NCBI GenBank assembly: GCA_900318465.1
Contig: ONKQ01000002.1
Location: 1 to 64,000 of the forward strand
Length of the DNA stretch: 64,000 nt
Reading direction: 5' to 3'
DNA from: an uncultured Bacteroidales bacterium
GTDB lineage: Bacteria > Bacteroidota > Bacteroidia > Bacteroidales > F082
Shown here: positions 25,656 to 49,465 of the stretch, piece by piece
Layout of the letters: every line of letters starts with the position of its first letter
Position numbering within the stretch: position 1 is the stretch's first letter
The notes under the pieces: model-generated
Told to the model about the DNA's origin: nothing
Seen by the model: the letters and a program-made list of their open reading frames with translations, nothing else
Database searches by the model: none
Made by a program: the position numbers and the translations under genes

Positions 25656-25663
25656 GGGATGAC

Positions 25664-25792: not shown

Positions 25793-25880
25793 TTATCCCT
25801 TGAAAAGGTGTATGGAAATGGTAAACTTATCCCTTGAAAAGGTGTATAGAACGGGTTGCTTTATCCCTTGAAAAGGTGCA
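25793..25880 (+). repeat. Iteron array 1 (three copies, 34-base period)
   Basis: TTATCCCTTGAAAAGGTGTA starts at 25793, 25827 and 25861, exactly 34 bases apart; the third copy ends GCA instead of GTA. The core CCTT-GA-AAGG is a small palindrome. The array stops 14 bases before the ATPase start at 25895. A period near three DNA turns suggests a protein bound on one face. The same layout precedes the ATPase at 48167. Confidence 0.9.
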
Positions 25881-25894
25881 AAATATTGAAAATC

Positions 25895-27244
25895 ATGAAG
25901 AGAAAAATCTATCAGGAACTGTTGAAATGGAAAAACGAAAAGCAAGGCAAGACGGCATTGTTGCTTGAAGGTGCGAGGCGCATCGGGAAGAGCTATATTG
26001 TCGAAGCCTTTGGAAAAAATGAATACAAGTCGTATATCCTCGTGGATTTCAATGACATAGATGAGGAATTGTTGAACATTTTTGAGCATTATTTGTCGAA
26101 TCGCGATGAGTTTTTCCTTCGTCTTTCCCTATATTTCGGTGTGAAGCTTTACCCTCGCGAATCGCTCATCATTTTCGATGAGGTGCAGCAATATCCCAAG
26201 GCACGTGCAGCCATCAAATACCTTGTGCAAGATGGCAGATTCGATTATATTGAGACGGGCTCGCTGATTTCCATCAAGAAAAATGTGACGGATATTGTGA
26301 TTCCTTCCGAGGAGCAGCGGATAGAGATGTTCCCCATGGATTTCGAAGAGTTTCTTTGGGCTTTGGGTGACGATATGGCTATGGACTTTGTCAGGCGGCA
26401 ATTTGAGAGGCTTGAGCCATTGGGAGCATTGCACCGCAAAGTGATGGACTATTTGCGCCAATACATGATAGTCGGTGGAATGCCCCAAGCCGTTCAGGCC
26501 TTTGTTGACACTAAGGACTTTGATGCGGTGGACGAAATCAAACGAGGCATTTTGAGGCTTTACCGAAATGACATTGGGAAATACGCCACCAAAGCGGAAA
26601 CAAGAGTGACCAGCATTTTCGATGAGATACCCGCCCAACTGCAACAGCACGAGAAGAAGTTCCGGCTTTCGGCCTTGAGGTCGGGAGCAAGGATGCGGGA
26701 TTATGAAGACGCTTTTTTCTGGCTCGATGATGCTTGTGTGGTCAACTTGTGCTACAATACGACCGCTCCTAATATTGGGTTGAGGCTTAATCGCGAGCGC
26801 ACCACCTTAAAATGTTATTTTGGTGATACAGGTTTACTCATTTCCCACGCTTTTGATGAGCGTATCATCGCCAAGGAGCAATTGTATAGAAAGTTGATGC
26901 TCAATAAATTGGAAATCAACAAAGGAATGTTGGTGGAAAATCTGGTGGCACAAATGTTAAGGGTTGCAGGGCACAAGTTGTATTTTTATTCCAATCCCGA
27001 CCGGAAAGTGGCCGAAAATCGTATGGAAATAGATTTTTTGATACCAAAGCTACAACTTACTAACCGACACAACATTTGCCCGATAGAAGTGAAATCGACC
27101 AACCGTTACACAACCACTTCTTTGGAGAAATTCCGTATCAAATTTGCCGAACAGTCAACAACGCCCTACGTTTTGCACACTTCTGATGTGAAGGTGAATA
27201 ATGGTATTGTTTTTCTTCCGCTTTATATGACTCCGTTGTTATAA
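25895..27244 (+). CDS. AAA_14/DUF4143-type ATPase with C-terminal PD-(D/E)XK-like region
   Basis: A 449-residue cytosolic protein. Walker A is GARRIGKS (about residues 26-33), Walker B is LIIFDEVQ (near 95), followed by a sensor-like YIETGSLIS. The middle has EMFPMDFEEFLWALG and the family motif YMIVGGMPQAV. The C-terminal part shows RMEIDFLIPK and ICPIEVKS, a plausible PD-(D/E)XK nuclease core. The ATG at 25895 is chosen because an upstream start at 25856 lies within the third iteron. These genes are frequent accessory genes in Bacteroidota; no function is firmly established. It is flanked by two copies of the pckA 3' repeat, which suggests insertion. Confidence 0.85.
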   Translation: MKRKIYQELLKWKNEKQGKTALLLEGARRIGKSYIVEAFGKNEYKSYILVDFNDIDEELLNIFEHYLSNRDEFFLRLSLYFGVKLYPRESLIIFDEVQQYPKARAAIKYLVQDGRFDYIETGSLISIKKNVTDIVIPSEEQRIEMFPMDFEEFLWALGDDMAMDFVRRQFERLEPLGALHRKVMDYLRQYMIVGGMPQAVQAFVDTKDFDAVDEIKRGILRLYRNDIGKYATKAETRVTSIFDEIPAQLQQHEKKFRLSALRSGARMRDYEDAFFWLDDACVVNLCYNTTAPNIGLRLNRERTTLKCYFGDTGLLISHAFDERIIAKEQLYRKLMLNKLEINKGMLVENLVAQMLRVAGHKLYFYSNPDRKVAENRMEIDFLIPKLQLTNRHNICPIEVKSTNRYTTTSLEKFRIKFAEQSTTPYVLHTSDVKVNNGIVFLPLYMTPLL

Positions 27245-27250
27245 CACAAA

Positions 27251-27320
27251 ACGAGCCACCCCAATCGGAGCAGCTCGTTGTTCTCACAGTTCTGCGTTTT
27301 CAGCGGATTCTGCGTGAAAA
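27251..27320 (-). terminator. pckA 3' hairpin and dispersed 3' repeat
   Basis: On the minus strand ACGAGC (27273-27278) pairs with GCTCGT (27251-27256), followed by TTTGTGTT. The T-run is poorer than at the orphan copy (25664-25735). The adjoining TTCAGCGGATTCTGCGTGA also matches that copy, and a degenerate version (TTATTCTGCGATTTCTG) lies after the stop of the gene at 24721, so the box recurs at leftward gene ends. Confidence 0.6.
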
Positions 27321-27323
27321 AAA

Positions 27324-28955
27324 TCACAATTTCGGGCCAGCGGCCACCAAAGCCTTGCCAGCGTCATTCGTCGTGAACTTCTCGAAGTTCTTGATGAAGC
27401 GCGAGGAGAGGTCCTTGGCCTTTTCTTCCCATGCGCTCTTGTCGGCGTAGGTGTCGCGCGGGTCGAGGATGTTCGGGTCGACGCCGGGCAATGCGGTCGG
27501 CACCTCGAAGTTGAAGTACGGGATCATCTTGGTCGGAGCCTTTTCGATGCTGCCATCAAGGATGGCGTCGATGATGCCGCGTGTGTCGCGGATGCTGATG
27601 CGTTTACCCGTGCCGTTCCAGCCGGTGTTCACCAAGTAAGCCTTGGCACCGCTCTGTTCCATACGCTTCACGAGTTCTTCGGCGTACTTGGTCGGGTGCA
27701 GTTCGAGGAAGGCTTGGCCGAAGCAGGCGCTGAAGGTCGGCGTAGGCTCGGTGATGCCGCGCTCGGTGCCGGCCAACTTGGCCGTGAAGCCGCTCAAGAA
27801 GTAGTATTTGCACTGTTCGGGCGTCAGGATGCTGACGGGAGGCAGCACACCGAAAGCGTCGGCACTGAGGAAGATGACGTTCTTGGCGGCGGGACCCGAC
27901 GAAACGGGACGCACGTTCTTCACAATCTTTTCGATGTGTTCGATGGGGTAGGAGACGCGGGTGTTCTCGGTCACGCTCTTATCCTTGAAGTCAATCTTGC
28001 CGTTAGCATCGACGGTGACGTTCTCCAACAAAGCATCGCGCTTGATGGCGTTGTAGATGTCGGGCTCGCTTTCCTTGTCTAAGTTGATGACCTTGGCGTA
28101 GCAGCCGCCTTCGAAGTTGAACACGCCTTCATCGTCCCAGCCGTGCTCGTCATCGCCGATGAGCAAACGTTTCGGGTCGGTCGAAAGGGTGGTCTTGCCC
28201 GTGCCGCTCAAGCCGAAGAAGATGGCGGTGTTTTCGCCCTTCATGTCGGTGTTGGCGGAGCAGTGCATGGCGGCGATGCCTTGCAGCGGCAGGTAGTAGT
28301 TCATCATCGAGAACATGCCTTTCTTCATCTCGCCACCGTACCAGGTGTTCAGAATCACTTGTTCGCGGCTGCTGACGTTGAAAGCCACGCAAGTGTCGCT
28401 GTTCAGGCCGAGTTCCTTGTAGTTTTCGACCTTGGCTTTCGAGGCGGTGTAGACGGTGAAGTTGGGCTTGAAGTCGGCCAGTTCCTCAGCCGTGGGCTTG
28501 ATGAACATGTTGAGCACGAAATGGGCCTGCCATGCCACTTCCATGATGAAACGGACGGCCATGCGGGTGTCCTTGTTGGCACCGCAGAAGGCATCCACCA
28601 CATAAAGGTTCTTGCCGCTTAACTGTTTCTTGGCCAAGTCTTTCACTTGTGCCCACACTTCTTCGCTCATCGGGTGGTTGTCGTTCTTATAGCCTTCGGT
28701 GGTCCACCAAACGGTGTCCTTCGACTTGGCGTCCATCACGATGTATTTGTCCTTGGGCGAGCGGCCGGTGTAGATGCCCGTCATCACGTTGACGGCGTTG
28801 AGTTCGGTCAAAACGCCTTTGTCGTAACCCGTCAGGGCGGGGTTCATCTCGTCCTTGAAGAGTTGTTCGTAGCTCGGGTTATAATAAATTTCCTTTGCGC
28901 CGTTGATGCCGTATTGGGCCAACGCGGCTTTGATTTCTTCGATGTTTTTTGCCAT
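27324..28955 (-). CDS. pckA: Phosphoenolpyruvate carboxykinase (ATP)
   Basis: A 543-residue cytosolic enzyme interconverting oxaloacetate plus ATP with phosphoenolpyruvate, CO2 and ADP. Signatures: [14 protein letters not shown] (substrate site), [19 protein letters not shown], the kinase P-loop [16 protein letters not shown] and the metal site [10 protein letters not shown], then ENTRVSYPI. Length is normal. In anaerobic Bacteroidales it often runs in the CO2-fixing, ATP-forming direction towards succinate. Codon use is strongly biased to G/C third positions, as expected of a highly expressed gene. Only 41 bases separate it from the DUF2442 stop upstream. Confidence 0.97.
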
Positions 28956-28996
28956 ATTCTGTTTGTTTAAATGATGATTAGATTTCGTTTAATTGT

Positions 28997-29254
28997 TTAT
29001 GCCACAATGCTTTGTTCATAAAGGTATTCAGGTGCGATGTCGATAGTGCCATGCAACCATGTGACCGTCCAACCGTCAAGGTCAAAGTGGTCGAAAACGG
29101 CTTTGTCGCGTAAAGGGGCAAAAATGGGGTATTGGTCGATTAGTGGTTCACAATCAAAAACCCGTTGGCTACCGTCGTTGAAGGTCAGTGCAAGTCTGAA
29201 TCCTTCAAGATTTCTCGCAGATGTTACCCATTTCAGTTCATTGGAGGCTTTCAT
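28997..29254 (-). CDS. DUF2442 protein, likely partner of DUF4160
   Basis: An 85-residue cytosolic protein. GFRLALTFNDGSQRVFDCEPL and the C-terminal DIAPEYLYEQ are characteristic of DUF2442. It starts two bases after the stop of the DUF4160 gene. The DUF4160/DUF2442 pair is common and has been proposed as a toxin-antitoxin-like module. Which protein is toxic, if either, is not known from sequence. Confidence 0.82.
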   Translation of the reverse strand: MKASNELKWVTSARNLEGFRLALTFNDGSQRVFDCEPLIDQYPIFAPLRDKAVFDHFDLDGWTVTWLHGTIDIAPEYLYEQSIVA

Positions 29255-29256
29255 GA

Positions 29257-29520
29257 TTAGTCTAATGGTTGAATGCTTGATGGAGATGTGCCTTTCTCCA
29301 ATTTATACCAGTTTTCCATCAGTTCTTCTTTGTGAAGGTCAAGCCAATCGTAAACAAGTTTCAAAGCTCGTCTTGGCATTTCTCCTGTAACCTTACCTGT
29401 CAGAATGTCAATGGAAGCGCGATATTCGTTGTATCTCACATGGAAATGTGGCGGGTTGTGGTCGGGGAAATACATCGTTATGACGATGCCATAGAAGTTG
29501 CTGATTTCTGGCATGGGCAC
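29257..29520 (-). CDS. DUF4160 protein
   Basis: An 87-residue cytosolic protein. MPEISNFYGIVITMYFPDHN followed by PPHFHVRYNEYRASI is the standard DUF4160 start, and the Leu-rich helix ALKLVYDWLDLHKEEL follows. A minus-strand -7 element TACTTTTG at 29532-29539 lies 12 bases upstream. It is the first gene of a two-gene unit with DUF2442. Confidence 0.85.
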   Translation of the reverse strand: MPMPEISNFYGIVITMYFPDHNPPHFHVRYNEYRASIDILTGKVTGEMPRRALKLVYDWLDLHKEELMENWYKLEKGTSPSSIQPLD

Positions 29521-29578
29521 ATTATTTTCTGCAAAAGTAGGGAATTATTTCATTATGGTGAAAAGAAAAAGGGATTTT

Positions 29579-30058
29579 TTAGAAAATCCGCCTGTAAACA
29601 TGACATTCCGGCGACTCCCCCCGTAAATCCAAATAATCCTGATGGTAATCCTCGGCGGGATAGAAGATCATGGTTTGTCGAATCTGGGTGGCGGGATGAT
29701 AGCCCATCTGCGTCAGTTCGCCAAAAACTTTTATGGCTGTGTCGCGTTCCTCAGTATTGTTGAACCAAATGGCGGAAAGGTATTGCGTTCCGATGTCGAT
29801 GCCTTGTCCGTCGGCTTGCTCAAAATTGTGGATTTCAAAGAAATAGCGCACCAAGGCTTCGTAGGAAACCTGCTCGGGGTCGTATTCCACTTCGATGGTC
29901 TCCAAATGCCCAGTCATACCCGTTTTCACTTGCTTGTAACTTGGGTTCTCGATTTCGCCGCCCATGAATCCGACGGTGGTTTTCGTCACGCCTTTGAGCC
30001 GCTTGAAGTAATACTCCACGCCCCAAAAGCAACCTGCTGAGAAATAGGCTTTTTTCAT
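29579..30058 (-). CDS. msrA: Peptide methionine sulfoxide reductase A
   Basis: A 159-residue protein that reduces methionine-S-sulfoxide. The active-site motif GCFWGVEYYF is at residues 9-18, with Cys10 as the nucleophile. Further markers are VGFMGGEIENPSYKQV, the TGHLETIEVEYDP block and YHQDYL. No MsrB domain is fused. It has no signal peptide, so it acts in the cytosol. Its ATG overlaps the lipoprotein stop by four bases, so it is probably the last gene of the operon led by the C10 protease. Confidence 0.93.
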   Translation of the reverse strand: MKKAYFSAGCFWGVEYYFKRLKGVTKTTVGFMGGEIENPSYKQVKTGMTGHLETIEVEYDPEQVSYEALVRYFFEIHNFEQADGQGIDIGTQYLSAIWFNNTEERDTAIKVFGELTQMGYHPATQIRQTMIFYPAEDYHQDYLDLRGESPECHVYRRIF

Positions 30059-30693
30059 TTTTGTTTTTCCTTTTTCATTAAAGAGATACCTTGTCTGATA
30101 CTATCTTCACGCTGTTCTTGATTCATAGCAAAGCCCATGTGAATTTGTCTTACAATCTGGTCTTTGTCAATGTAAAACTTGGTCGGGCTTCCAGTGAGGT
30201 TCATCCGTAAGGCATCCTTTTGATCGATGATGAATATATTGTTGTAACTGCCTTGAAGACTCTTGGCATAGTCAAACGCTTCTCCAGGTGCTGAATCCTC
30301 AGCATCTTCAATGAGGCACAGAATGTCAATGCCAGCAAGCTCATCCTTCATGTTGCTAATGGTCATAGGTAACTCTTTTTCAACCTCTTCCTTCCCAAAT
30401 CCACAATGGGTGTCAGTGAAAACGAGGATGGTTTCTCTTTTTAGCCATTTTTTGATTTTCACGCTTTTCCCATCAAGACTTTTCACTTGAATATCAGGGA
30501 TTTCCTTGCCCATCGTATTGTTGTACCAATCCATCATGATCTTTCTATCGAGTTCTCGGCTCTCTTTTTCAGTAAGGCTAGTGACTCCCTCGTAATACTT
30601 TTCGTAATCTACAGGAATGATGTAATTGTTTGTCCTATTGCATGAAGCGAAGGCTAATACCAAAAAGGTTAAACAAAGGCAAATCTTTTTCAT
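30055..30693 (-). CDS. Lipoprotein with thioredoxin-like fold, single cysteine
   Basis: A 212-residue protein with a lipoprotein signal (MKKICLCLTFLVLAFASC, lipid Cys18). After a charged linker the sequence IPDIQVKSLDGKSVKIKKWL and ILVFTDTHCGFGKEEVEKEL resembles AhpC/TlpA-type thioredoxin-like proteins, and GSPTKFYIDKDQIVRQIHMG matches the cis-Pro region. Only one Cys is present where a CxxC would be, so a classical disulfide reductase function is unlikely. It sits between the C10 protease and msrA, with a 4-base overlap with the latter. Confidence 0.7.
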   Translation of the reverse strand: MKKICLCLTFLVLAFASCNRTNNYIIPVDYEKYYEGVTSLTEKESRELDRKIMMDWYNNTMGKEIPDIQVKSLDGKSVKIKKWLKRETILVFTDTHCGFGKEEVEKELPMTISNMKDELAGIDILCLIEDAEDSAPGEAFDYAKSLQGSYNNIFIIDQKDALRMNLTGSPTKFYIDKDQIVRQIHMGFAMNQEQREDSIRQGISLMKKEKQK

Positions 30694-30697
30694 GGCA

Positions 30698-33349
30698 CTA
30701 TTCTTTGATTATCTTGGTAACGGCTTCCATTCCGTTTTTATTGCTGACAATCAGGAAATAAACCCCTTTTTCGAGGCAGCTCAAGTCGATGGTTTCAATT
30801 TTTCCGGCGGTCATAACCATTTGCCCCAAAAGGTTGCGAATTTCCACTTTATTAATATCTGTGGCATCAATATGCAACGTGCCAGTCGTCGGGTTAGGCC
30901 AAACTTTGACGGTGCTTTCTGAGGTCTCCGTCACGCTTTCTAATATCATCAAAGTGAGGCCGATGACACTGTCGCAGTCTTGTCCTTCGAGGACGTAAGT
31001 ATAGTAGCCAGGCTCGGTCAAAGGGTGGCTGAAGAACCAATAAGGGCTTTGGCTTTCATAAAGTGCATCCTCAATTTTAGTGAGCGAGGCACAGCTTTCG
31101 TAGGCGCCAATCTCGACGCGACCTTTCTGGATGCGGGGATTGCCTGCGATGTCGATGCTGCCCAAGCCTGTGGTGTTGGGTTTGCCCGCGTTGAGGCAGA
31201 TGCTGCGCGACTTCAGGCTCCAGTTCTCGTTGTGGTAATCGGCTCCTGCACCTTCAGCTGGATGATTGAAGCGGACAAAACCACCAGGCTCCTGACCATT
31301 GTTTTCGGAAGGCAGGTCGATGATTTCTGTACCGTCCATACCGCCTTGCACGGCGCAATATTCATAGTCGCTCACGCCCTCGGTTTGGCTCGGCTGACCG
31401 TTGGCCATGTTGCCCCAAAGGATGCAGTTGTAGTATTTGTTGTGTCTTTCTTCGTGGTAGATGCCGCCGATGCTCTCCGTGGCGAGGTTCATCACGATGT
31501 CGCAGTTGTAGGCTGTGAACTTGCCTCGGGCATACATGCCTCCGGCACTTTGCGCCGAGTTGTTGCTGAGGATGCAGTTTTTGAGCGTCGGCTCCGTATT
31601 ATTATAAAGGTAGATGCCGCCGCCTTTGGTCGAGGCGCGGTTGTTACTGATGCGGCAGTTGGTGTAGTCGGCACCGATGCGGTCGCACACGCCGCCGCCC
31701 ATCGAAGCGGTGTTGTCGGTGATGCGGCAGTTGTTCAACGTGACATGTGCCGTGCCGCCGGTCGAATTGATGTAAACGCCGCCGCCATACATGCTTGCCT
31801 CGTTGTTGATAATGTTGCAGTTGTTGAGGGTGACGTAATTGTTCAGATAGGCTCCCGCACCGCTGCCCACATTGCCGTTTTGGAGGGTGAAGCCGTCCCA
31901 AACAGCCATCGAAGTCGAAGTGAAGGCTTGGTCTTGCATCAACACACGTCTTGCATTTTGACCGTCGAGAATGGTGGTGTTTTTCTCGAAGTCACGCTGT
32001 GAGAGGTCGAAATCGGGAGCTTCGTTGCCCTCAAAGCCGCCATATATGCGGTTGCTCTTCGAGATGTAGAACGCGCCTTCCGTGTCGGTGGTGTCGCCGT
32101 AATAAGTGCCGGCCTTCACCCAAACCTTGGTGCCGCCGCCGCTCGAAAGGGCAGAAGCGAATTGGAGTTTATTGGTGGCGTTGTCCCACGAGGAGCCGTC
32201 ACCAGCACCATCCTCACTGACGTAGATGATACCATTGTCGTCGGCCTGGATGCTGACAGGGTAGAGGTTCATCACCACGGCCTGACCCTCGTTGAAGCCG
32301 TTCACGTCGTAGGTGGAATAGAAGCCGTCGCCGCTGCCGCTCCACCCGAAGTTGAAGTGCATCAGGTCGTTATTGTCGTATCCGTCGCAAACAAAGGCGT
32401 GACCGCTATCGCCGTTGGCACCGGAATAATAAATCGGATGCGACAGGTCGAGTTCGGCCTTCAGCATGGCTATCCAAGCCTCATTGGTGTAAGTGCTTTT
32501 TTGGCGGTATTTTGCGCCGCAATAACCAAAATATGAGCGCATAGCAGTTTCCACATCCATCGATTGCGCACCGCTGCCCGAAGCGGAATAGTTCATGTTG
32601 ACGCTCACGCCGCAGTGGTACATCAATGTGGCGACGGCATCGTTGTGGCTCCAAACTTCATTGGGCATTTGCTCCCAATGGTAGGTGGTGGCGGCAAAGT
32701 TGGCACTTTGCTCACCGTATTGGTTGTGGACATAACTGTGTGATCCAAAGCCCGTTGTGGGGTAATCCCAATATTTCATCACCTGAGCCATAGCGCAAGC
32801 CACGCAGCCAGCGTAGACATGTCCGCAAGGGCCGCCCCACCAGCCGCCGCCCGAAGTGGCCGGACAATATTCATTGTAATAACAATCCTGATTCCAGCGC
32901 GTTTCTACCATCGGGTCGACCGACCTTTCGCTTTTGGCAGAGAAAACGCCTTGTGCAGCTTCATTCCATTGTCGTTGGATGTCTGCCTCGGGTGCGATGT
33001 TGTTGTCAATTGTGAAATCAATCATTTCGGAATAATGCTGAAGCCATGACGTGAAGTTTTCAGGAGCATCGGCTAAATCGGGGAAATTGCTTTCGTCAGA
33101 CCAACCCAATACGGGCGGCAAGACGGTATTGTTTGAAATGATGACAAAGCCTTGTGTGCCAATGTTGTATACGAAAACACCATCGGACGAAACCAAATTC
33201 AAGTCTTGGCTTTTGAAAGTGGTTCTGGTTTCGGCGAAGGCTTTGGCGGTTTTATGTGCCCATGCCTCGTCGACCGTCTTGAACGTTTGTGCGAAAGTTG
33301 GTGAAAGCGTGGTGAAAACCAGCAATAAAACGAGTGCTATTTTTTTCAT
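30698..33349 (-). CDS. Type IX-secreted C10 (streptopain-like) protease with beta-helix region
   Basis: An 883-residue secreted protein. Order: signal peptide (residues 1-20), a propeptide-like inhibitor domain with YNIGTQGFVIISNN, then the C10 peptidase domain with GCVACAMAQVMKYWDYP (catalytic Cys near 180), SGHAFVCDGYD (catalytic His) and HFNFGWSGSGDG. Residues of about 450-650 hold repeats such as LNNCNIINNEASMYGGGVYI, typical of right-handed parallel beta-helices. The last 75 residues (VKVWPNPTTGTLHI to TKIIKE) form a type IX sorting domain. A -7 element TATTTTTG is at 33366-33373 on the minus strand. The protease-plus-beta-helix combination is unusual. Confidence 0.88.
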   Translation of the reverse strand: MKKIALVLLLVFTTLSPTFAQTFKTVDEAWAHKTAKAFAETRTTFKSQDLNLVSSDGVFVYNIGTQGFVIISNNTVLPPVLGWSDESNFPDLADAPENFTSWLQHYSEMIDFTIDNNIAPEADIQRQWNEAAQGVFSAKSERSVDPMVETRWNQDCYYNEYCPATSGGGWWGGPCGHVYAGCVACAMAQVMKYWDYPTTGFGSHSYVHNQYGEQSANFAATTYHWEQMPNEVWSHNDAVATLMYHCGVSVNMNYSASGSGAQSMDVETAMRSYFGYCGAKYRQKSTYTNEAWIAMLKAELDLSHPIYYSGANGDSGHAFVCDGYDNNDLMHFNFGWSGSGDGFYSTYDVNGFNEGQAVVMNLYPVSIQADDNGIIYVSEDGAGDGSSWDNATNKLQFASALSSGGGTKVWVKAGTYYGDTTDTEGAFYISKSNRIYGGFEGNEAPDFDLSQRDFEKNTTILDGQNARRVLMQDQAFTSTSMAVWDGFTLQNGNVGSGAGAYLNNYVTLNNCNIINNEASMYGGGVYINSTGGTAHVTLNNCRITDNTASMGGGVCDRIGADYTNCRISNNRASTKGGGIYLYNNTEPTLKNCILSNNSAQSAGGMYARGKFTAYNCDIVMNLATESIGGIYHEERHNKYYNCILWGNMANGQPSQTEGVSDYEYCAVQGGMDGTEIIDLPSENNGQEPGGFVRFNHPAEGAGADYHNENWSLKSRSICLNAGKPNTTGLGSIDIAGNPRIQKGRVEIGAYESCASLTKIEDALYESQSPYWFFSHPLTEPGYYTYVLEGQDCDSVIGLTLMILESVTETSESTVKVWPNPTTGTLHIDATDINKVEIRNLLGQMVMTAGKIETIDLSCLEKGVYFLIVSNKNGMEAVTKIIKE

Positions 33350-33512
33350 ACGATGAAATTTTTCGCAAAAATAAGAACTTGTTTCGGATTATTTTGGAAA
33401 AGTTTTTGTTTTGTACAACAAATCTACATGTTCTTCACTTTTCACCGATTTTCACCAGCCGTCTTTTAATTCGTGTTTTTTCCGTAAATTTGCACCCCAA
33501 AATCATTGTGTT

Positions 33513-35786: not shown

Positions 35787-35798
35787 TTCGCAAAAGCG

Positions 35799-35830: not shown

Positions 35831-35855
35831 CAAACCAATAAGCAACCCACATTTT

Positions 35856-38179: not shown

Positions 38180-38182
38180 AAA

Positions 38183-40186: not shown

Positions 40187-40243
40187 TTCCAAGACCCCAT
40201 TTTTACCAAAATTTGCTTTTCCCAAATAAAAATGCAGATAATT

Positions 40244-40278
40244 ATACTTTTTCTCTGTTTTTTTTCAAGAAAAAGTAT
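40244..40278. repeat. Perfect A/T-rich palindrome before an ATPase gene
   Basis: ATACTTTTTCT (40244-40254) and AGAAAAAGTAT (40268-40278) are exact reverse complements with a 13-base loop. Outer sequences AAATAAA and TTTATTT extend the symmetry. It may be the topB terminator or a binding site for the ATPase gene that starts at 40326. Confidence 0.55.
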
Positions 40279-40296
40279 GTTTATTTGCAATTTTTG

Positions 40297-40304
40297 TATT
40301 TTTG
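40297..40304 (+). promoter_or_regulatory. -7 promoter element of the ATPase gene at 40326
   Basis: TATTTTTG matches TAnnTTTG and lies 22 bases before the ATG. A TATG at 40276-40279 stands at the -33 distance, a weak match. Confidence 0.4.
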
Positions 40305-40325
40305 TGCCAGCTAAGAATATGAATA

Positions 40326-41771: not shown

Positions 41772-41775
41772 TGTA

Positions 41776-42969
41776 TTATTCAATCTCCAACGTCTTCCTG
41801 CAAATCTCAATCTCTTCGGGGTCGCCGGTGTATTTGCCGTGGTCGTCGCTGAGTTTGACCACCTTTTTCCAGTTGCGTTTCTCGGTAATTTTGGCTGCAG
41901 TCAGTTTCACGACGATGTTCATCGGTTTCACGTTGTCGATATCGCAGGTGAGGTGGGTGCCGATACCGTAGGAGTCTTGCATCCGCCCATTCACGGCCTC
42001 GTGGATAGCGATGGCCTCGCTGACATTCAGGCCGTTACTGAAAATGATGGACTTCTGCTCCGGGTTGATGCCGAGTTCCTTGTATTTCGCGATGATTTCC
42101 TCCAAAGCCTCAATGTTATCGCCGCTATCGACGCGCAAGCCGTCAAACAATTTGGCGTGTAATGTGGTGAAATTCTGGAAGAAAGCTTTGCGCGTGTAGG
42201 TGTCGTAGAGGAATACGCCGAGGCTACCAGCATACACCTCCTGCCAATAGTCCATGGCGAGGTAGTTGGCTTCATTGTAGCCGTAAAGCGAGCAGGTCTC
42301 AATGAACTGGTGGCTCATGGTGCCGATGGGGGTGAGGTCGTATTTCATGGCCAACAGGACATTACTTGTGCCCACGAAACAAGTTTTGGTAAACTGTTTT
42401 TGCGCCTCGATAAACGATTGTATCACCCTGTCCTGATGCTCAAAGGAGAAACGGCGGCGCGTACCGAAGTCACTGAACTTCACGCCATTACCGATTAATC
42501 GGATGCCCTTGTCGTAGGATTTCTTGTATTCCTTTTCGGCATCGTAATGCTCAAATTCGCCTTTCAGTTCGTGCATCAGTTCTGAAACGGTTGCCAAGAT
42601 GGGCATCTCCCAAAAAACGGTGCGCCATAGCAAGCCTGTGACGGTGATATGCAAGTGACCCTCAGCGTCTTGGCTCACTTCGACCTCGTTGGGGCGCATG
42701 TGGAAGCCTCTCAAAAAGGTGAAGAACCATAGCGGGAAATAATAGCATTTCCGTTTCATGAAATGCACTTCATCATCGGTGATTTTGAGGTTGCCGTAAA
42801 GGTCGAATTGCTCCCGCAACTTTTCGGCGAAACCTTCGGGATAGACCGTGTTGTTGCGGTCGACGAAGGTGTATTGTCCAATGGCGCGTGGGAACTTTTG
42901 CAGGTAGGCATAGCACACGCTGAAGGTGTATAGGTCGTTGTCTAACAGGCTGTTGATGATTTGTCTCAT
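41776..42969 (-). CDS. pncB: Nicotinate phosphoribosyltransferase
   Basis: A 397-residue cytosolic enzyme that makes nicotinate mononucleotide from nicotinate and PRPP in NAD salvage. MRQIINSLLDNDLYTFSVCY at the N-terminus, KFSDFGTRRRFSFEHQDRVI (substrate and phosphate site, near residue 185), FVGTSNVLLAMKYDL, GLRVDSGDN and the C-terminal VKLSDDHGKYTGDPEE are family hallmarks. Length is normal. It is convergent with the ATPase gene at 40326, with only four bases between the stops. Confidence 0.95.
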   Translation of the reverse strand: MRQIINSLLDNDLYTFSVCYAYLQKFPRAIGQYTFVDRNNTVYPEGFAEKLREQFDLYGNLKITDDEVHFMKRKCYYFPLWFFTFLRGFHMRPNEVEVSQDAEGHLHITVTGLLWRTVFWEMPILATVSELMHELKGEFEHYDAEKEYKKSYDKGIRLIGNGVKFSDFGTRRRFSFEHQDRVIQSFIEAQKQFTKTCFVGTSNVLLAMKYDLTPIGTMSHQFIETCSLYGYNEANYLAMDYWQEVYAGSLGVFLYDTYTRKAFFQNFTTLHAKLFDGLRVDSGDNIEALEEIIAKYKELGINPEQKSIIFSNGLNVSEAIAIHEAVNGRMQDSYGIGTHLTCDIDNVKPMNIVVKLTAAKITEKRNWKKVVKLSDDHGKYTGDPEEIEICRKTLEIE

Positions 42970-42985
42970 GGTGGTTTGTTTTTGG

Positions 42986-43016
42986 GCTGTTAGCTGTTAG
43001 CAATTAGCTGTTAGCT
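42986..43016 (-). repeat. Tandem repeat GCTGTTAGCTATTAGC type, block A
   Basis: GCTGTTA-GCTGTTA-GCAATTA-GCTGTTA-GCT, seven-base units, 17 bases upstream of pncB. A sister block lies at 43116-43138 on the other side of the same gap. Confidence 0.75.
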
Positions 43017-43115
43017 TGCTTTAACTGAGCTTTTAGCCGATTCTGTTAATGTAATGTTTCAATTAGTTTGTTTAACATGGCTTTTATATCATTAATCTCT
43101 TTGTTGAGTTGTTGA

Positions 43116-43138
43116 AATAGCTAATAGCTAAAAGCCAA
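43116..43138 (-). repeat. Tandem repeat GCTATTAGCTATT type, block B
   Basis: AATAGCTAATAGCTAAAAGCC directly next to the stop codon (43139-43141) of the leftward DUF47 gene. The units are the reverse complement of block A, so the two could pair in a transcript. Confidence 0.7.
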
Positions 43139-43789
43139 TTACAACTTACTTATTATGCTCCTAATCTTATCCGATATATACTTCACCGAATTGGTCGTGT
43201 TTTCAAGCACTTGCACGAGGTCTTTCCGCTTGATGATTTCAGTGAGGCTGTAGTTTTGTTGGAATAGTTTGCTGATATAACTGCCGTAAAGCACATCGTT
43301 TTCGTTTTCCAACGACTTGATTTCGTGGCACAAACGGACGATTTCCTTGCCTTTGGCAGTGGTCATTTCGGGCAGGTCGGCGATGATGTTGCTAAGGTTT
43401 TCGGCGGCAAACATGATATTGTCGGCCATCGTGGTAAGGTCTTCGTCAACGTCAGTGAAGCGGCGCGTGAGGATGATGTTGGCCGTGTCGTCGATGTGGT
43501 CGAGGAAGGTATCCATCATTTCGGCGAGTTCATGAACGTCTTCGCGCTCAAAAGGTGTCAAAACGGTGGCAAAAAGTTGGCTGTAGAAGTCGCGAAGCAC
43601 TTGGTCGCCCTCGGTCTCGCAGGTCTTGATGTCCTTTTTCAAGGCCTCAAGTTGCTGCAAGTCAGTCTCTGTGAGCATCTTACGCAAAAGTTTTGAAGCT
43701 TTGTCGATGTATTCCGCCTGTTTTTGGTAGAGCGGGAAGAACTTGGTCTCCTTGGGGACGAAAAACTGAAAGAAACTGTTGAGGCTCAT
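43139..43789 (-). CDS. DUF47/PhoU-like phosphate transport accessory protein (downstream copy)
   Basis: A 216-residue helical cytosolic protein. FFQFFVPKETKFFPLYQKQA and the DUF47 motif TPFEREDVHELAEMMDTFLD (about residues 80-100) identify the family, which is related to PhoU and often encoded beside PiT transporters. It starts four bases after the PiT stop and is the third gene of the operon that begins at 45511. It is a paralogue of that first gene. It presumably tunes transporter activity. Confidence 0.88.
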   Translation of the reverse strand: MSLNSFFQFFVPKETKFFPLYQKQAEYIDKASKLLRKMLTETDLQQLEALKKDIKTCETEGDQVLRDFYSQLFATVLTPFEREDVHELAEMMDTFLDHIDDTANIILTRRFTDVDEDLTTMADNIMFAAENLSNIIADLPEMTTAKGKEIVRLCHEIKSLENENDVLYGSYISKLFQQNYSLTEIIKRKDLVQVLENTTNSVKYISDKIRSIISKL

Positions 43790-43793
43790 GGCG

Positions 43794-44864
43794 TTACTTG
43801 ACTAAGAGGTTAAACAACAGGTTCAGGATGCCACTGATGACGAGAGGCACGGGAATGGTCAAAATCCACGAAAGGACGATGCGCTTGGCCGTGACCCATT
43901 TCACGGATTTCACACCGTCGGTGAGGCCCACGCCAATGACGCCGCCCGTGATGGTATGTGTAGTACTTACAGGAATACCCATGAACGAAGTGGCAATCAA
44001 TGTGGTAGCACCGGCAAATTCGGCTGAAAAACCTCTAATGGGAGTGATTTTCGCCAAACCGCCGCCCATGGTCTTGATGACGTTCTTACCGCCAATCAAA
44101 ATACCCAACGACATGATGATATAGCACACAACAGCCAGAATGTCAGGGATATGGAAGCCTTGACTGCTGTCGTAGAAATTGCCGATGAAACTTTGCATCT
44201 CAGGACTGACACCTTGCGTGGTAAACACGCTGGCCATCAAAACGGCGATGATTCCCATAGTTTTGGGCGCGTCGTTTGAGCCGTGGCCGATGCAGAAAGC
44301 CGCCGTCGAGAAATGTTGCATGATTTTGAAAATCTTGTCGACCTTTTTGCGAGGGCTTTTCTTGAAAATCCTCAGCAAAAGGCACTCAAGGAAGAAGCCC
44401 AAAAACAGACCGATGAGCGGTGATAACACAATGAAAGCCAATGTGATAATGATTGGTTGCATGTGCAGTACGCCGCTGCCGTTGACGAACCATGCCGCCC
44501 CGATGATGCCCCCTATAAGGGCGTGCGAGGTAGAGATGGGCATACCGCTTTTGGTGCAAACTGCCACCCAAATGGCCGCCCCAACGAGAGCAGATAATAT
44601 AAGGTAGGGGTCGATGACGTTTTGGTCGGCAAAGTTGGCCATGGTGTTGCCCACCGCAAATTGCTGATGTAGCACCAATCGGATGAGGAAGAAGGCGGCA
44701 AACTCCCAAAACGAAGCCCAAATGATGGCCTGAATCGGAGTCATTACCTTGGTGGCGATGATGGTCGAGATGGAGTTGGCCGCGTCGTTCATGCCGTTCA
44801 GGAAGGTGAAGACGAAGGCAAGGATGATGGAAAAGATGATGGCTATGGTCAGGAGGTTCATCAC
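43794..44864 (-). CDS. Inorganic phosphate transporter, PiT family
   Basis: A 356-residue inner-membrane protein with about ten helices. The duplicated PiT signature appears as FTFLNGMNDAANSISTIIAT near residue 20 and as AFCIGHGSNDAPKTMGIIAV near 195. GMPISTSHALIGGIIGAAW and GIPVSTTHTITGGVIGVG are the second repeated motif. It imports phosphate by ion symport. Its first four bases overlap the stop of the upstream DUF47 gene. Confidence 0.93.
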   Translation of the reverse strand: MMNLLTIAIIFSIILAFVFTFLNGMNDAANSISTIIATKVMTPIQAIIWASFWEFAAFFLIRLVLHQQFAVGNTMANFADQNVIDPYLILSALVGAAIWVAVCTKSGMPISTSHALIGGIIGAAWFVNGSGVLHMQPIIITLAFIVLSPLIGLFLGFFLECLLLRIFKKSPRKKVDKIFKIMQHFSTAAFCIGHGSNDAPKTMGIIAVLMASVFTTQGVSPEMQSFIGNFYDSSQGFHIPDILAVVCYIIMSLGILIGGKNVIKTMGGGLAKITPIRGFSAEFAGATTLIATSFMGIPVSTTHTITGGVIGVGLTDGVKSVKWVTAKRIVLSWILTIPVPLVISGILNLLFNLLVK

Positions 44865-45511
44865 GATTCTTTTATGATAATACTTTTAACGGTGCTGGTC
44901 ACCTCCTTGGCGCGGTCGGTGGTGTCTTCCACAGCTTGGGCTATCTCCTTGTATTTCAGCAGTTCAATCTCGTCGTGTTCGTTGCTGAAAAGGTAGGATA
45001 TGTAGTCGCCGTAGATGTCGTCGACGGCATGTTCGATGAGGGTGACTTTCTGGCACAAGTCGCTGATTTGCTGATGATTCTTCCCGAGATCGTCCAAGAG
45101 TCCGAAGATTTGCATCATTAGGCTGGCGTCCTCATGGATGTTGTCGATGATCTCCTTGATTTGCTTGTCGATTTTCTTGGGGTTGTACATCAGGATGGTT
45201 TTGGCCGAATGGTTGATGAAGTCGAGGAATTTGTCCAAGTCCATGGCCAAGGCGTTCATGTCCTCGCGGTCGAAGGGCGTGACAAAAGCCTCGTTCAGTT
45301 CGATGTAGAACTCGCGCAGCAGTTCGTCGCCGGTGGTCTCCTGTTTTTTAATCATTCGGGTGAGCAGTTTGCGCTCCTCGGGGTCGTCGCTCTTGACGAG
45401 TTCCTTGAGGTATTTGGCCGCAATTTGTGCAGTCTCAGCCTGTTTTGCGTATGTGGGGAAGAAATGCTTCTCGCGGCTGCTTCCTCTGGTGAAAAGGTTG
45501 TTCAGTGCCAT
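44861..45511 (-). CDS. DUF47/PhoU-like phosphate transport accessory protein (upstream copy)
   Basis: A 216-residue protein. FTRGSSREKHFFPTYAKQAE and VTPFDREDMNALAMDLDKFL identify DUF47. It is the first gene of a three-gene unit, DUF47 - PiT - DUF47, and overlaps the transporter start by four bases. It differs from the downstream DUF47 through most of its sequence, so the two are old paralogues that could act as a heteromer or in different phosphate states. Confidence 0.88.
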   Translation of the reverse strand: MALNNLFTRGSSREKHFFPTYAKQAETAQIAAKYLKELVKSDDPEERKLLTRMIKKQETTGDELLREFYIELNEAFVTPFDREDMNALAMDLDKFLDFINHSAKTILMYNPKKIDKQIKEIIDNIHEDASLMMQIFGLLDDLGKNHQQISDLCQKVTLIEHAVDDIYGDYISYLFSNEHDEIELLKYKEIAQAVEDTTDRAKEVTSTVKSIIIKES

Positions 45512-45608
45512 TATCGAGATGGGTTTGAATTTTGGGGCAAAGTTAGGGAATTATGGAATTGGAAATACGTTTTTTTCAGGAAATGGTACTCAAAACACGA
45601 TAAATTCC

Positions 45609-45616
45609 TATTTTTG
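45609..45616 (+). promoter_or_regulatory. -7 promoter element of the DUF262 gene
   Basis: TATTTTTG, a good match to TAnnTTTG, 39 bases before the ATG at 45655. No -33 TTTG at the usual distance. Confidence 0.45.
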
Positions 45617-45654
45617 CCATATCAAATGTCAAAGACTTTATAAATAATACGTTC

Positions 45655-47802
45655 ATGGCAGTAGAATCACACGATAAAAAACTGGACGATCTTTTGAAGA
45701 TGGTTGAGGAGGGCAAAGCCCAGTTACCGGATTTTCAACGCAGTTGGGTTTGGGACAATACCAAGATTTGCAAACTCATTGAAAGTATCACATCTGGATA
45801 CCCTATGGGTGCTGCAATGTTTTTGGCAAATGGTAGTGGACAAATAAGATTTAAATATCGTAAGTTCGAAGGCGTAGAGAATACCAATGATGTAGTACCT
45901 GAGTGGTTGGTACTTGATGGTCAACAGCGGCTTACCACTTTGTATCAGGTGCTGAAAAGCAAAAATGCGACCACCACCCGCATGGAAACCAATCGCGATG
46001 TCACCGTTAAGCGGTATTACTACCTTGACATCAAGAAATGTCTTGACCCCAATGCTGACCGACTTGATGCGATTATCTCTGTGTCGGAGAAGAAACAGCT
46101 GACATCTGACATTGGCCGTACGGTGACACTCGACATTTCGACTCGGGAAAAAGAATTTGAGAATCTGATGTTTCCCTTGAATATCACGTTTTCTACGCCT
46201 GATGTCATGAACTGGATGATGCAGTTGCACAATTATTATGGTCAAAATCTTGAGGTTATATCTCTTTTTCAAGACTTCTATACAAAAGTTTTGTTGTTGG
46301 TGCAGTCTTATACGATGCCTGTAATCCAACTCGACAAAGATACACCAAAAGAAGCCGTCTGTCAAATATTTGAAAATGTGAATACTGGCGGCGTTCCGCT
46401 CACTGTGTTTGAATTGGTAACAGCCACCTTTGCCGCAGATGGACATTTGTTGCGTCCAGACTGGGAAGAAATTAAGAAAACTTTCTCAAATAAAAAGAAC
46501 GGAGAACTACTTCGCGACATTACGGGTGCCAATTTCCTTGCCGCAATGACATTGATGGTTTCATACTATAAACGTGTTGCCTCGGGTGATGATGAACGAG
46601 TAGCTGTAACTTGTAAAAAACGCGATATACTTCGTCTTGATTTGGTAGATTATAAGAAGTACCATGATGATCTCGTAAAAGGTTTCTGTGATGCTGCCGA
46701 CTTTTTGGTTCACCAGGGCATTTTTAGGTCAAGAGACCTCCCGTATTCATCGCAACTGATACCATTGGCTGCAATTTATGCTTATGACAATGCCAATAAC
46801 AAGCTGCTCAATCTTGGAACGAACCAGGAATTGTTAGCCAAATGGTATTGGTGTGGTGTAATGGGCGAGATGTATGGAGGGGCTAATGAAGCTCGTTTTG
46901 CTCTTGATATTGTTGGCATTTTCCGCTGGATGAGCGGAAAGGAAATGCCTGATACAGTGTATCGCTCAAACATTCAGCCCACACGTTTGCTCACCATGCA
47001 AACCAGAAATAGTGCCGCATATAAAGGCATTATGGCACTGATTATACAGGACTGTCCTCTTGACTTCATGACTGGCAACAGTATGAATATTGCATCATAC
47101 ATCGACGAAGAGGCCGACATTCATCACATCTTTCCCCAAACTTATTGTGAAAAGTTAGGACTTCCAAAAAACAAATGGAATTCTGTAATCAACAAAACTC
47201 CTATCTATGCTACAACAAACCGTTCAATCGGTGGACATGCACCCAGCATTTATATCGGCACAATGGCCAACAAAGGTCTAAGCCAGCAAATGATTCATGA
47301 TGCAATAGTATCACACAAAATCAACTACGACTATCTCGCTGCTGACGATTTCGACAATTATTTCATCGACCGAGCAAAGCAGTTGCTTGACCGTATCGAA
47401 AAGGCTACTGGCAAAGCAATTTCTGGACGAGAGAGTGGGGAGACTATTAGAGAGTATGGGGTAGCACTATCTGGTAATATTGATGCAGTAAAAAACCAAG
47501 AAAAACAAGAATCAATTGAAGACTTACTAAAAGTTCGTCAGTTTATTGACACTCATGAGTGGCATTTTGCCAAAACGATGCCAGAGATTCCGCATTGGTA
47601 TTGCTTGTTGAGGGACAAAAACGATGTTGAGGAATTCCGTTGGTTCGCCGCTCATATACGCAAATACAGCAAACCAGGTCAATTCTATGGACGGACATAC
47701 TACTATTACTATTTCGAAGATTATAAGTATTGGTGGATGGACGACACCGTTGAGGAGTGCGACCTCATCAATCGGGATAAGGTTAATGGTAGATTCGAAT
47801 AA
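45655..47802 (+). CDS. DUF262 (GmrSD-like) protein with HNH-type motif
   Basis: A 715-residue cytosolic protein. The N-terminal DUF262 domain has LPDFQRSWVWDNTKICKLI, YPMGAAMFLANG and the catalytic-type loop LVLDGQQRLTTLYQVL (about residues 84-99), related to the nucleotide-hydrolysing GmrS/ParB fold. Farther on, EADIHHIFPQTYCEKLGLP (near residue 490) is a His-Asn-His-like motif as in DUF1524/GmrD. The C-terminal 150 residues are unassigned. GmrSD-type enzymes cut modified phage DNA, so a type IV-like restriction role is plausible but unproven. It stands alone without a methylase. The gene is visibly richer in A+T than its neighbours, a sign of transfer. Confidence 0.82.
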   Translation: MAVESHDKKLDDLLKMVEEGKAQLPDFQRSWVWDNTKICKLIESITSGYPMGAAMFLANGSGQIRFKYRKFEGVENTNDVVPEWLVLDGQQRLTTLYQVLKSKNATTTRMETNRDVTVKRYYYLDIKKCLDPNADRLDAIISVSEKKQLTSDIGRTVTLDISTREKEFENLMFPLNITFSTPDVMNWMMQLHNYYGQNLEVISLFQDFYTKVLLLVQSYTMPVIQLDKDTPKEAVCQIFENVNTGGVPLTVFELVTATFAADGHLLRPDWEEIKKTFSNKKNGELLRDITGANFLAAMTLMVSYYKRVASGDDERVAVTCKKRDILRLDLVDYKKYHDDLVKGFCDAADFLVHQGIFRSRDLPYSSQLIPLAAIYAYDNANNKLLNLGTNQELLAKWYWCGVMGEMYGGANEARFALDIVGIFRWMSGKEMPDTVYRSNIQPTRLLTMQTRNSAAYKGIMALIIQDCPLDFMTGNSMNIASYIDEEADIHHIFPQTYCEKLGLPKNKWNSVINKTPIYATTNRSIGGHAPSIYIGTMANKGLSQQMIHDAIVSHKINYDYLAADDFDNYFIDRAKQLLDRIEKATGKAISGRESGETIREYGVALSGNIDAVKNQEKQESIEDLLKVRQFIDTHEWHFAKTMPEIPHWYCLLRDKNDVEEFRWFAAHIRKYSKPGQFYGRTYYYYYFEDYKYWWMDDTVEECDLINRDKVNGRFE

Positions 47803-48050
47803 ATTTGAATTTCATAACTGGGCAAAAACTTCAATTTTTTTTCAAGTTTTTACTAATCTTGTCCATTGGCGTACAAGGGATAAGGTGCCCCCGTGACCAT
47901 CCAAAGTATGACTGGATTGTTTTGTGTTCCCCACAATACGGGGGTGCAAAAGTAGAGAATAATAGGATAGGAATCGTGTTTTTTTCCTGAAAAGGGAATG
48001 TGATTGTGAATATGGTAGTCTAAGAAGATGTCAAAAGATTTGGTTTAACA
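47803..48050. other. Gene-free gap with hairpins and a leftward -7 element
   Basis: No gene is supported. AAAAACTT (near 47824) and AAGTTTTT (near 47843) form an A/T hairpin that may end the DUF262 transcript. CCCCCGT (near 47889) can pair with ACGGGGG (near 47938). On the minus strand TACTTTTG at 47947-47954 is a consensus -7 element whose transcript of about 115 bases would end at the A/T hairpin. It may be a small RNA or what remains of a lost leftward gene. The rest is A+T-rich. Confidence 0.35.
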
Positions 48051-48052
48051 GC

Positions 48053-48138
48053 TATTCCCTCATAAAATTGTAATTTTTTGAAAATATTCCCTCATAAAAT
48101 TGTAATATTTTTGTGATATTCCCTCATAAAATTGTAAT
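48053..48138 (+). repeat. Iteron array 2 (three identical copies, 32-base period)
   Basis: TATTCCCTCATAAAATTGTA starts at 48053, 48085 and 48117, exactly 32 bases apart, with all copies identical over 22 bases. The array ends 28 bases before the ATPase ATG at 48167. Aligned without gaps to the 20-base iteron of array 1, 13 positions agree (T--TCCCT---AAA--TGTA). Confidence 0.92.
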
Positions 48139-48166
48139 TTTGCAGCGAAATTGAAATGTAAACATC

Positions 48167-49465
48167 ATGGAAAGAGCGATTTATGCCCAATTGTTGGAAT
48201 GGAAAGACCTTCCTGACCGTAAGCCGTTAATACTTCTCGGGGCACGTCAAGTGGGAAAGACCTATATTTTGAAGCAGTTCGGTGAACGCGAATTCGGAAA
48301 TATGGTCTATGTCAACTGTCATAATAATGCATTTATGGAGAACCTGTTCACCGATTTCGACATCAACCGAATTGTTTATCAAATCGGTGTCCATACGGGG
48401 CAGAAAATCACTCCAGGAAAGACATTGTTGGTTCTTGACGAGATTCAGGAAATCCACAACGGCATTGCCAGTTTGAAGTATTTTTGCGAGGACTTGCGAA
48501 TGCTTCATGTGGCTGTGGCAGGTTCGTTGCTTGGCATTTCACTGAAAGAAGACGAGTCTTTTCCAGTTGGTAAAGTGAACACACTGAGGATGTTTCCCAT
48601 GACTTTCTCCGAATTTCTTCTCGCTTCGGGGAGGGAAGCACTTGCCGAGGCTATTGACAACCTCGACTATGGAACCATGCGTCTGTTAGATAACGAATGT
48701 ACGGAAAGATTGCGCCAGTATTTTTTCACCGGCGGAATGCCAGAGGCAGTGTCTAAATGGCTGCAAACCCTTGACCCAAAGGCGGTTCGGAAAGTACACA
48801 ATGAAATCCTTGAGGCTTATTATTTGGATTTCTCCAAGCATACAAAGACTATGGTCAGGCATATCCGCATGGTTTGGGACAGCATTCCGGCGCAGCTGGC
48901 CAAAGAGAACAAGAAGTTCATTTTTGGTTTGGTCAAGAAAGGGGCGAGGGCAGCGCAATTTGAGGAGGCTCTGCAATGGCTTCTTGATGCGGGGTTGCTT
49001 ATCCGCGTGAACCGCTGCAATGTGCCACGCCAACCTTTGAAGTTCTACGCTGACTCGTCGGCCTTCAAGATTTATCTTTTGGATTGCGGACTTTTGGCCA
49101 CGCTTTGCGAAGCAGAACCAGCCGATATTCTGTTGGGCAGCAAGGCTTTCGTCGAGTTCAAGGGGGCTTTTGCCGAGAATTTTGTATTGCAGCAATTGAC
49201 CGCCAAAATGAGCCATTCCGTTTATTATTACAGCAAGGACAACTCCACGCAAGAGGTTGATTTTCTTGTTCAAACATCAGAACGGGTTGTTCCCGTTGAG
49301 GTGAAAGCGGAAGAAAACGTCAAGTCGAAATCACTTTCCACTTTCATCAATGAGGAATTTAAGGAGTTGCACCTGAAAGGTTTGCGGTTCAGCATGAAAC
49401 CTTACATCGACCAAGGTTGGATGGAGAATGTTCCGCTTTATGCTGCTGAGGCGTATTTTGGGTAA
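48167..49465 (+). CDS. AAA_14/DUF4143-type ATPase with iterons upstream
   Basis: A 432-residue cytosolic protein. IYAQLLEWKDLPDRKPLILL leads to Walker A GARQVGKT (about residues 25-32); Walker B is LLVLDEIQE (near 87), and AVAGSLLGISL follows as sensor-like sequence. FTGGMPEAVSKWLQ is the DUF4143-family motif, and the C-terminus has QEVDFLVQTSERVVPVEVKAE, a PD-(D/E)XK-like Asp...Glu-x-Lys. It is a distant relative of the gene at 25895 with the same domain order. Both have three iterons immediately upstream. It is convergent with the agmatinase-family gene nine bases away. Confidence 0.87.
   Translation: MERAIYAQLLEWKDLPDRKPLILLGARQVGKTYILKQFGEREFGNMVYVNCHNNAFMENLFTDFDINRIVYQIGVHTGQKITPGKTLLVLDEIQEIHNGIASLKYFCEDLRMLHVAVAGSLLGISLKEDESFPVGKVNTLRMFPMTFSEFLLASGREALAEAIDNLDYGTMRLLDNECTERLRQYFFTGGMPEAVSKWLQTLDPKAVRKVHNEILEAYYLDFSKHTKTMVRHIRMVWDSIPAQLAKENKKFIFGLVKKGARAAQFEEALQWLLDAGLLIRVNRCNVPRQPLKFYADSSAFKIYLLDCGLLATLCEAEPADILLGSKAFVEFKGAFAENFVLQQLTAKMSHSVYYYSKDNSTQEVDFLVQTSERVVPVEVKAEENVKSKSLSTFINEEFKELHLKGLRFSMKPYIDQGWMENVPLYAAEAYFG

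Follow-up and report, generated by a model that had tools for sequence, protein, structure and literature searches.

Two ATPase genes, starting at 25895 and 48167, are described here together with the direct repeats in front of them. They lie in a stretch of 64,000 nucleotides, hereafter the window, from an uncultured Bacteroidales bacterium of lineage F082 (assembly GCA_900318465.1, contig ONKQ01000002.1, positions 1 to 64,000). Each gene and the phased array that precedes it appear to be a one-gene module. On balance it is likely that the product, an Orc/Cdc6-like ATPase with a PD-(D/E)XK nuclease motif, binds the array of its own gene, with self-repression as the most likely effect. As alignments with homologues show, each array is conserved along with its gene and the two are transferred as one. 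Arrays correspond to the protein subfamily, and most of the tested ones of the 31–34-bp class are in phase with the promoter.

The initial annotation listed three copies of a 20-base repeat before each gene, and its spacings are as claimed, 34/34 for the 25895 gene and 32/32 for the 48167 gene. The repeat TATTCCCTCATAAAATTGTA is exact at 48053, 48085, and 48117; TTATCCCTTGAAAAGGTGTA is exact at 25793 and 25827, but the third copy, at 25861, has one mismatch (TGCA end). As with iterons, at least three direct repeats at a helical period stand beside both genes. The periods given for the window are correct, but the commonest period in the family is 32–33 bp, and 34 bp is the upper end. A 13-position pattern shared by the two repeats occurs nine times in the window with up to two mismatches (1.54 expected; none of 100 shuffles reaches nine), and six of the nine are the copies already reported. 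Over the whole genome, with up to one mismatch, it occurs at 13 places and its reversed control at nine; the shared pattern alone is therefore not rare in the genome, whereas the arrays are. Seven of the genomic matches lie beyond the reported copies, on contigs C63 (three), C49, C65, C72, and C93. Those on C63 and C49 are upstream of DUF4143 genes (L022 and L031); those on C65 and C72 have no match nearby from the genome list of 49 DUF4143 genes. Coordinates are collected in Table 1.

Table 1. Arrays, genes, and associated features in the window.
Feature	Position	Strand	Details
Three direct repeats TTATCCCTTGAAAAGGTGTA	25793..25880	+	Period 34
AAA_14 + DUF4143 gene, PDC-S01 type	25895..27244	+	449 amino acids; Pfam, PADLOC
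Three direct repeats TATTCCCTCATAAAATTGTA	48053..48136	+	Period 32
AAA_14 + DUF4143 gene	48167..49465	+	432 amino acids; Pfam, PADLOC, homologue alignment, structure model
Putative Bacteroidota promoter	48110..48142	+	-33 TTTG 48110-48113, 21-bp spacer, -7 TAATTTTG 48135-48142
Direct duplication of ~76 bp around the 25895 module, left copy	25661..25736	.	Single copy in G031 (L282)
Direct duplication of ~76 bp around the 25895 module, right copy	27241..27316	.	Single copy in G031 (L282)
Solo two-copy array TTTGACAATGCGCA, without its own ATPase gene	25607..25660	-	34-bp spacing; close to array of paralogue L048

The proteins encoded by the two genes contain only AAA_14 and DUF4143 according to Pfam. 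In PADLOC both match profiles of PDC-S01, a candidate defence family of AAA_14/DUF4143 and COG1373 proteins, over most or all of their length (best E-values 3e-112 and 4.4e-168), as do seven further homologues tested. Among 61 aligned homologues the Walker residues G30, K31, D91, and E92 (numbering of the 48167 protein) are invariant, and so are the PD-(D/E)XK motif residues E337, D365, E378, and K380, which, going by the superfamily motif, we take to be catalytic. The genes are under purifying selection, with nonsynonymous divergence (dN) far below synonymous divergence (dS) in both comparisons made (dN 0.084 vs dS 1.47; dN 0.025 vs dS 0.95). A structure model with a predicted local distance difference test (pLDDT) score of 92 finds its best PDB matches in DNA-bound complexes of archaeal Orc1/Cdc6 (2v1u and 2qby), followed by ORC, clamp-loader, STAND, and TnsC ATPases, with global TM-scores of only about 0.3. 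Residues 230–304, with the order helix-helix-strand-strand, look like a candidate winged helix. According to the available portion of one report, PDC-S01 joins an ATPase to a domain of the PD-(D/E)XK superfamily and ranks fourth in frequency among prokaryotic defences, most candidates of this sort still awaiting validation (PMC12988326). The portions available of two reports treat it as a candidate defence gene (PMC12988326, PMC13356809). The defence function suggested in the initial annotation is supported insofar as PADLOC lists the family as a defence candidate; defence itself is only predicted.

How general the arrays are was assessed in the source genome (G000, 3.67 Mb; other G numbers denote genomes of relatives and L numbers denote loci), which holds 49 DUF4143 genes and, to go by what its nearest relatives are called, is probably that of a rumen Bacteroidales. 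In the 260 bp upstream of each gene, most have a separate array, and its sequence varies from gene to gene. With revised starts, a three-copy direct-repeat array is found upstream of 37 of the 49 genes vs 14 of 135 control genes (every second of 269), each upstream region having had to beat 30 single-base shuffles of itself. At a fixed cut-off of 13 conserved columns the counts are 30 of 49 and 3 of 135. A first, cruder count, with fixed rules and the first ATG taken as the start, had given 27 of 49 vs 7 of 269; five of those seven control positives have a period of 21, and the other two are both sides of one place. A control array at L077 (~17.2 kb), counted twice, consists by eye of in-frame coding repeats and was kept in the counts. 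Six loci of Fic genes, taken as a control family, showed one flanking repeat and no array of three or more copies, the gene frame of one (L298) having probably been missed. In a 60-genome sample of the genus, DUF4143 matches to one query range from 0 to at least 29 per genome, and 18 of 24 examined homologues of the genus have an array (24 of the 29 loci L080–L107 and L249 were scored, namely those with a recognised gene and enough upstream DNA).

Array period tracks the phylogeny of the proteins. In a tree built from 48 paralogues, the groups with 33-bp and 23-bp periods cluster, and none of 500 shuffles of the labels needed as few changes. Of the 19 members of the clade to which the window genes belong, 18 pass the second count, 17 at 32–34 bp and L026, weakly, at 21. 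L048, which does not pass, has two copies only. A second clade, with WCGKTTT-like Walker A regions, has 23-bp arrays in all seven members, and its members in other genera (e.g. L346, L348, and L350) have similar arrays by eye. Outside both clades 12 of 23 genes pass, and two GPRQSGK-type genes of the source genome, L009 and L014, share one 22-bp array. From 198 genomes of the phylum the DUF4143 genes with the best scores were also inspected (loci L109–L137; 25 of 29 scored, four being without a recognised gene), and the single array among these 25 belongs to a GARQTGK-type gene. Because arrays are tied to certain clades and occur in 1 of 25 of these best-scoring genes, the array is a trait of subfamilies and not of DUF4143 generally. 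Homologues without upstream arrays, which the initial annotation held would speak against its proposal, thus exist for part of DUF4143.

Within the source genome the repeats are largely private, in keeping with the claim that paralogues have arrays of their own. In a search that covered ~0.62 Mb of the genome, in partly overlapping stretches, 27 of 37 array units had no other match with up to two mismatches, and 7 of 37 had scattered single matches. Sharing is confined to L009 and L014, which have one array in common, and to L040, which matches one copy of the L042 array. Repeat and protein also diverge together, as had been predicted: with the eight bases preceding the core as the variable, and rows more than 90% identical left out, the two distances are correlated (Mantel rho 0.19, p 0.002, 500 permutations, n=51). 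The identity of these eight bases is 0.69–0.73 above 60% protein identity, 0.45 at 50–60%, and 0.32–0.34 below 50%.

The same organization is found far from the source genome. Named loci were collected with the alignment of the clade, and 65 of 80 were scored, namely those with a recognised gene and enough upstream DNA. An array is present in 42 of the 65, with a period of 32 or 33 bp in 41 of the 42, and its bearers include Spirochaetes, Clostridia, Bacilli, and the archaeon Methanocalculus. Otherwise differing repeats have a half-site in common: RAAAAnTGT, with at most one mismatch, is present in 58 of 84 arrays of period 31–34 from all sources, compared with a mean of 4.7 and a maximum of 9 in 200 controls with shuffled columns. 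These controls matter because the register was chosen to fit the motif. L138, L139, and L143, near-duplicates of L080, L082, and L087, were kept in the array and half-site counts; without them the half-site is found in 55 of 81. It can be seen in TATTCCCTCATAAAATTGTA (window), AAAGTCGTCAGAAAAAGTGTCAA (L035), and TGCAAAAGTGTGAT (L186). Since this half recurs across repeats that otherwise differ, the repeat site is probably bipartite, with a common half and a variable half.

The position of the arrays relative to the promoter points to their function. Promoters of Bacteroidota have a -33/-7 consensus. At the 48167 gene the third repeat falls in the spacer of the predicted promoter, and the TA of the -7 box comes from the TGTA of this repeat. 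Thirty-nine Bacteroidota arrays of the 31–34-bp class, with L138, L139, and L143 left out, were entered in a test of promoter phase, and three had no box. In 24 of the remaining 36 the predicted -7 box overlaps the half-site in a fixed register (permuted mean 7.3, largest 15 in 2000). Of the 49 DUF4143 genes of the source genome, 47 have a predicted box no more than 150 bp from the start, vs 109 of 269 controls. For other phyla a listing made without a control, which contained one Bacteroidales locus (L143), shows a TATAAT-like box straight after the core in some arrays (L151, L176, L177, and L179) and not in others. As the putative operator sits on contact points of the polymerase, repression is the best explanation.

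Array and gene also move as one, and this transfer as a unit bears out the initial proposal of a compact module of repeats plus ATPase; the alignment limits in relatives of the 48167, 25895, and L030 modules all point this way. For the 48167 gene the genus provides seven distinct relatives with 64–81% DNA identity, whose alignments run from the first repeat to 49441–49464. They start at 48054–48074 in six and at 48044 in L086, and the flanks outside have no match; an eighth relative, L140, aligns in parts of the gene only. The nearest relative of the 25895 gene (G058, 87%) is homologous over 25770–27244 only. Five relatives of L030 align from 728–735, four ending at 2153–2156 and one at 2069, and more distant ones align within the gene only. 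The sites of the modules differ or stand empty in other genomes. For example, nothing lies between the PhoU_div gene (44861–45511) and the arginase gene in several genomes (e.g. G030, G042, G044, and G050); at this site G048 has an EamA gene 9 bp from the arginase gene, and in G018 the module is present but has lost most of its gene. Shortened copies keep the array, the start codon, and the gene end (G018, G024, G056, and G030; G022 less fully). Among the matches listed, homologues occur on plasmids (60 records) and phages (13 records, with at least 80% of the query covered in 8).

Based on these observations the following mechanism may be proposed. The Orc/Cdc6-like protein would bind the asymmetric repeats side by side on one face of the DNA, with a conserved part of the protein recognizing the common half-site AAAAnTGT and a variable part the remainder. 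Because one repeat sits on the -7/-10 element, bound protein would exclude RNA polymerase and keep the level of the ATPase-nuclease low. Once the protein was released, e.g. through foreign DNA or a change driven by ATP or damage, the ATPase-nuclease would be induced as a defence enzyme. Private repeats would allow dozens of related modules to coexist in one cell without cross-regulation.

Several observations weigh against this model. The reversed half-site motif also matches 21 of the 84 arrays, and 26 of the 84 lack the half-site. Twelve of the 36 main-class arrays are out of phase with the promoter, the three further arrays without a canonical box include that of the 25895 gene, and the phase count itself is affected by TGTA, which provides two bases of the box, and by the descent that relates the rows of the test. 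For the 23-bp clade, the best set of three copies stops 65–136 bp short of the ATG, upstream of the -7 box, a position that simple occlusion does not explain, and control there may be of either sign. Protein identity is tracked more closely by the core and 3' side of the repeat (rho 0.41) than by its variable half, which argues against the simplest version, in which only the variable half confers specificity. Correlation by region along the protein singled out no repeat-reading region, and its best short window is in the nuclease part. The global TM-score of the Orc1 match is low (0.29). Arrays are absent from 11 of the 23 genes outside the two array clades and from 24 of the 25 best-scoring genes of the phylum, most of which are of the GPRQSGKT type. 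The defence role of PDC-S01, finally, is only predicted.

Other explanations of the arrays were considered. That they are chance or low-complexity repeats in AT-rich intergenic DNA has a negligible probability: the spacers are indeed AT-rich, and some control regions beat their own shuffles as well (the 14 of 135), but the excess over controls in both counts and the shuffles of the window that fall short of its pattern count speak against chance, and the conservation of the arrays in relatives already contradicts it. It is highly improbable that the repeats act as RNA, in a leader structure or a small RNA. In 15 of 55 arrays the final promoter box is within the array or upstream of it, as such a role would allow, but in 38 of 55 it is downstream, so that the array would be outside the transcript; an RNA element was also rejected on folding, the two window arrays folding no better than shuffles (z -0.9 and -0.3). 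A more serious proposal is that the array binds another regulator, such as a host factor, and not the ATPase. Defence loci under a separate repressor are known, and the available part of the RptR report describes one acting on three direct repeats of a defence promoter (PMC12255303). A regulator of this kind is nevertheless quite improbable here: the arrays differ between paralogues of one genome and follow the protein across species, and the transferred unit has no second gene.

The module could instead be a selfish mobile element whose ends are the array and the 3' end, the array-bound ATPase-nuclease inserting copies beside gene ends; insertion would then make long target duplications of ~28–205 bp. 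We find this rather unlikely. In its favour, a direct repeat of at least 25 bp flanks 15 of 45 modules of the source genome vs 7 of 266 controls, and its downstream copy starts within 60 bp of the stop in 13 modules vs 4 controls. The sequence of ~76 bp that is double around the 25895 gene (copies 77% identical) is single in G031. At L030 the 3' end of secA, with its SEC-C motif, is doubled over 167 bp (90% identical) and single in G018, G030, and G050, and G058 has a 62-bp repeat (95%) on both sides, immediately preceding the array and right after the stop. Internally deleted copies retain the array and the 3' end, and in G018 and G048 the PEPCK site holds another DUF4143 module. However, three of the 15 flanking repeats (L011, L013, and L048) repeat promoter or array and not the target, several others are terminator-like hairpins, and the site of the 48167 gene has no duplication. 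Of 84 homologues elsewhere nine have a flanking repeat, five of them near the stop, and three of these five are array copies. Pfam finds neither a transposase nor an integrase domain in either window protein. At the secA site G048 and G022 have a gene with SLFN_AlbA_2 and HATPase_c_4 (Pfam, G048 copy) between the target copies; G057 has two target copies at the same spacing. An unrelated gene between target copies implies that duplication is a habit of the sites or of single-gene transfer and not proof of activity of the family, and flanking duplication was therefore dropped as proof of self-mobility. As regards the ends and target duplications that would mark a transposable element, the module ends are nearly constant, and flanking repeats occur in one third of the modules and also around an unrelated gene. 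No Bacteroides plasmid with most of both flanks minus the module was present among the 45 records listed, of which H127 has two short pieces around other genes; a plasmid copy of the module had no flanking repeat; and the G058 module with its flanks, used as query, found the target gene in many genomes with no matched downstream side. The fullest version of mobility appears unlikely: a large family of one-gene mobile elements in which the phased array is both operator and left end, and the Orc-like ATPase-nuclease both represses itself and copies or inserts the module next to the ends of genes, making long target duplications and giving dozens of insulated copies per chromosome.

A self-repressing module of this kind would have both likenesses to and differences from known systems. 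Plasmid iterons with an autorepressing Rep are phased direct repeats of ~20 bp beside the gene of their binder. The present ~20-bp repeats likewise adjoin the gene of their presumed binder, but Pfam shows AAA_14 and DUF4143 only and no replication protein. The archaeal Orc1/Cdc6 initiators, the best structural neighbours, are AAA+ proteins bound to origin DNA, and their genes adjoin their own binding sites. To our knowledge they have no nuclease domain, and the modules here, unlike them, are scattered through chromosomes. PDC-S01 shares with the window proteins its described features, an ATPase and PD-(D/E)XK; the descriptions of it, as far as available, name no cis array, whereas here the array defines the module in two subfamilies. 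No description of a cis array belonging to a PDC-S01 gene, of an ATPase with upstream repeats, or of the PDC-S01 mechanism was found in the open-licence literature searched. The RptR island, in the part of its description available (PMC12255303), has a separate small repressor and a 6-bp palindromic site; here the sole gene is the ATPase, and the sites are asymmetric and ~20 bp long. What would be new is a putative autoregulated gene carrying an iteron-like operator, for which no description was found in this family; PDC-S01 itself and control of the RptR type were already known.

PDC-S01 is reported, in the part of the paper available, among the most frequent predicted defence genes of prokaryotes (PMC12988326). 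The private, promoter-embedded phased array offers a first DNA target for it. An array matched to each protein suggests that PDC-S01 proteins recognize DNA specifically, and a recognition code could be read from the dozens of naturally diverged protein-site pairs.

Further observations concern individual loci. A near-identical DUF4143 gene region (L302) occurs on plasmids of many human-gut strains of Bacteroides, Parabacteroides, and Phocaeicola; 24 records hold at least 80% of it, and it is a possible tractable test case. Shortened modules (L219, L330, L335, L336, and L337) keep the array and the first 18–35 bases of the gene. Their deletions begin 18–35 bases past the start codon, at nearly the same place in four kinds. 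Genes of the AlbA_2/HATPase_c_4 type at L327 (662–2383) and L330 (1070–2815), which lie at the secA 3' end with copies of it on either side, have in-frame repeats in their 3' part. L048 has a second array copy just past its stop codon, and L013, L097, and L098 likewise repeat the upstream array or promoter region there. In the window, in the region 45655–47912, a GmrSD-type gene occupies the place of the EamA gene of G018 and G048, and a 55-bp piece at 47858–47912 matches that EamA gene and looks like a remnant of it.

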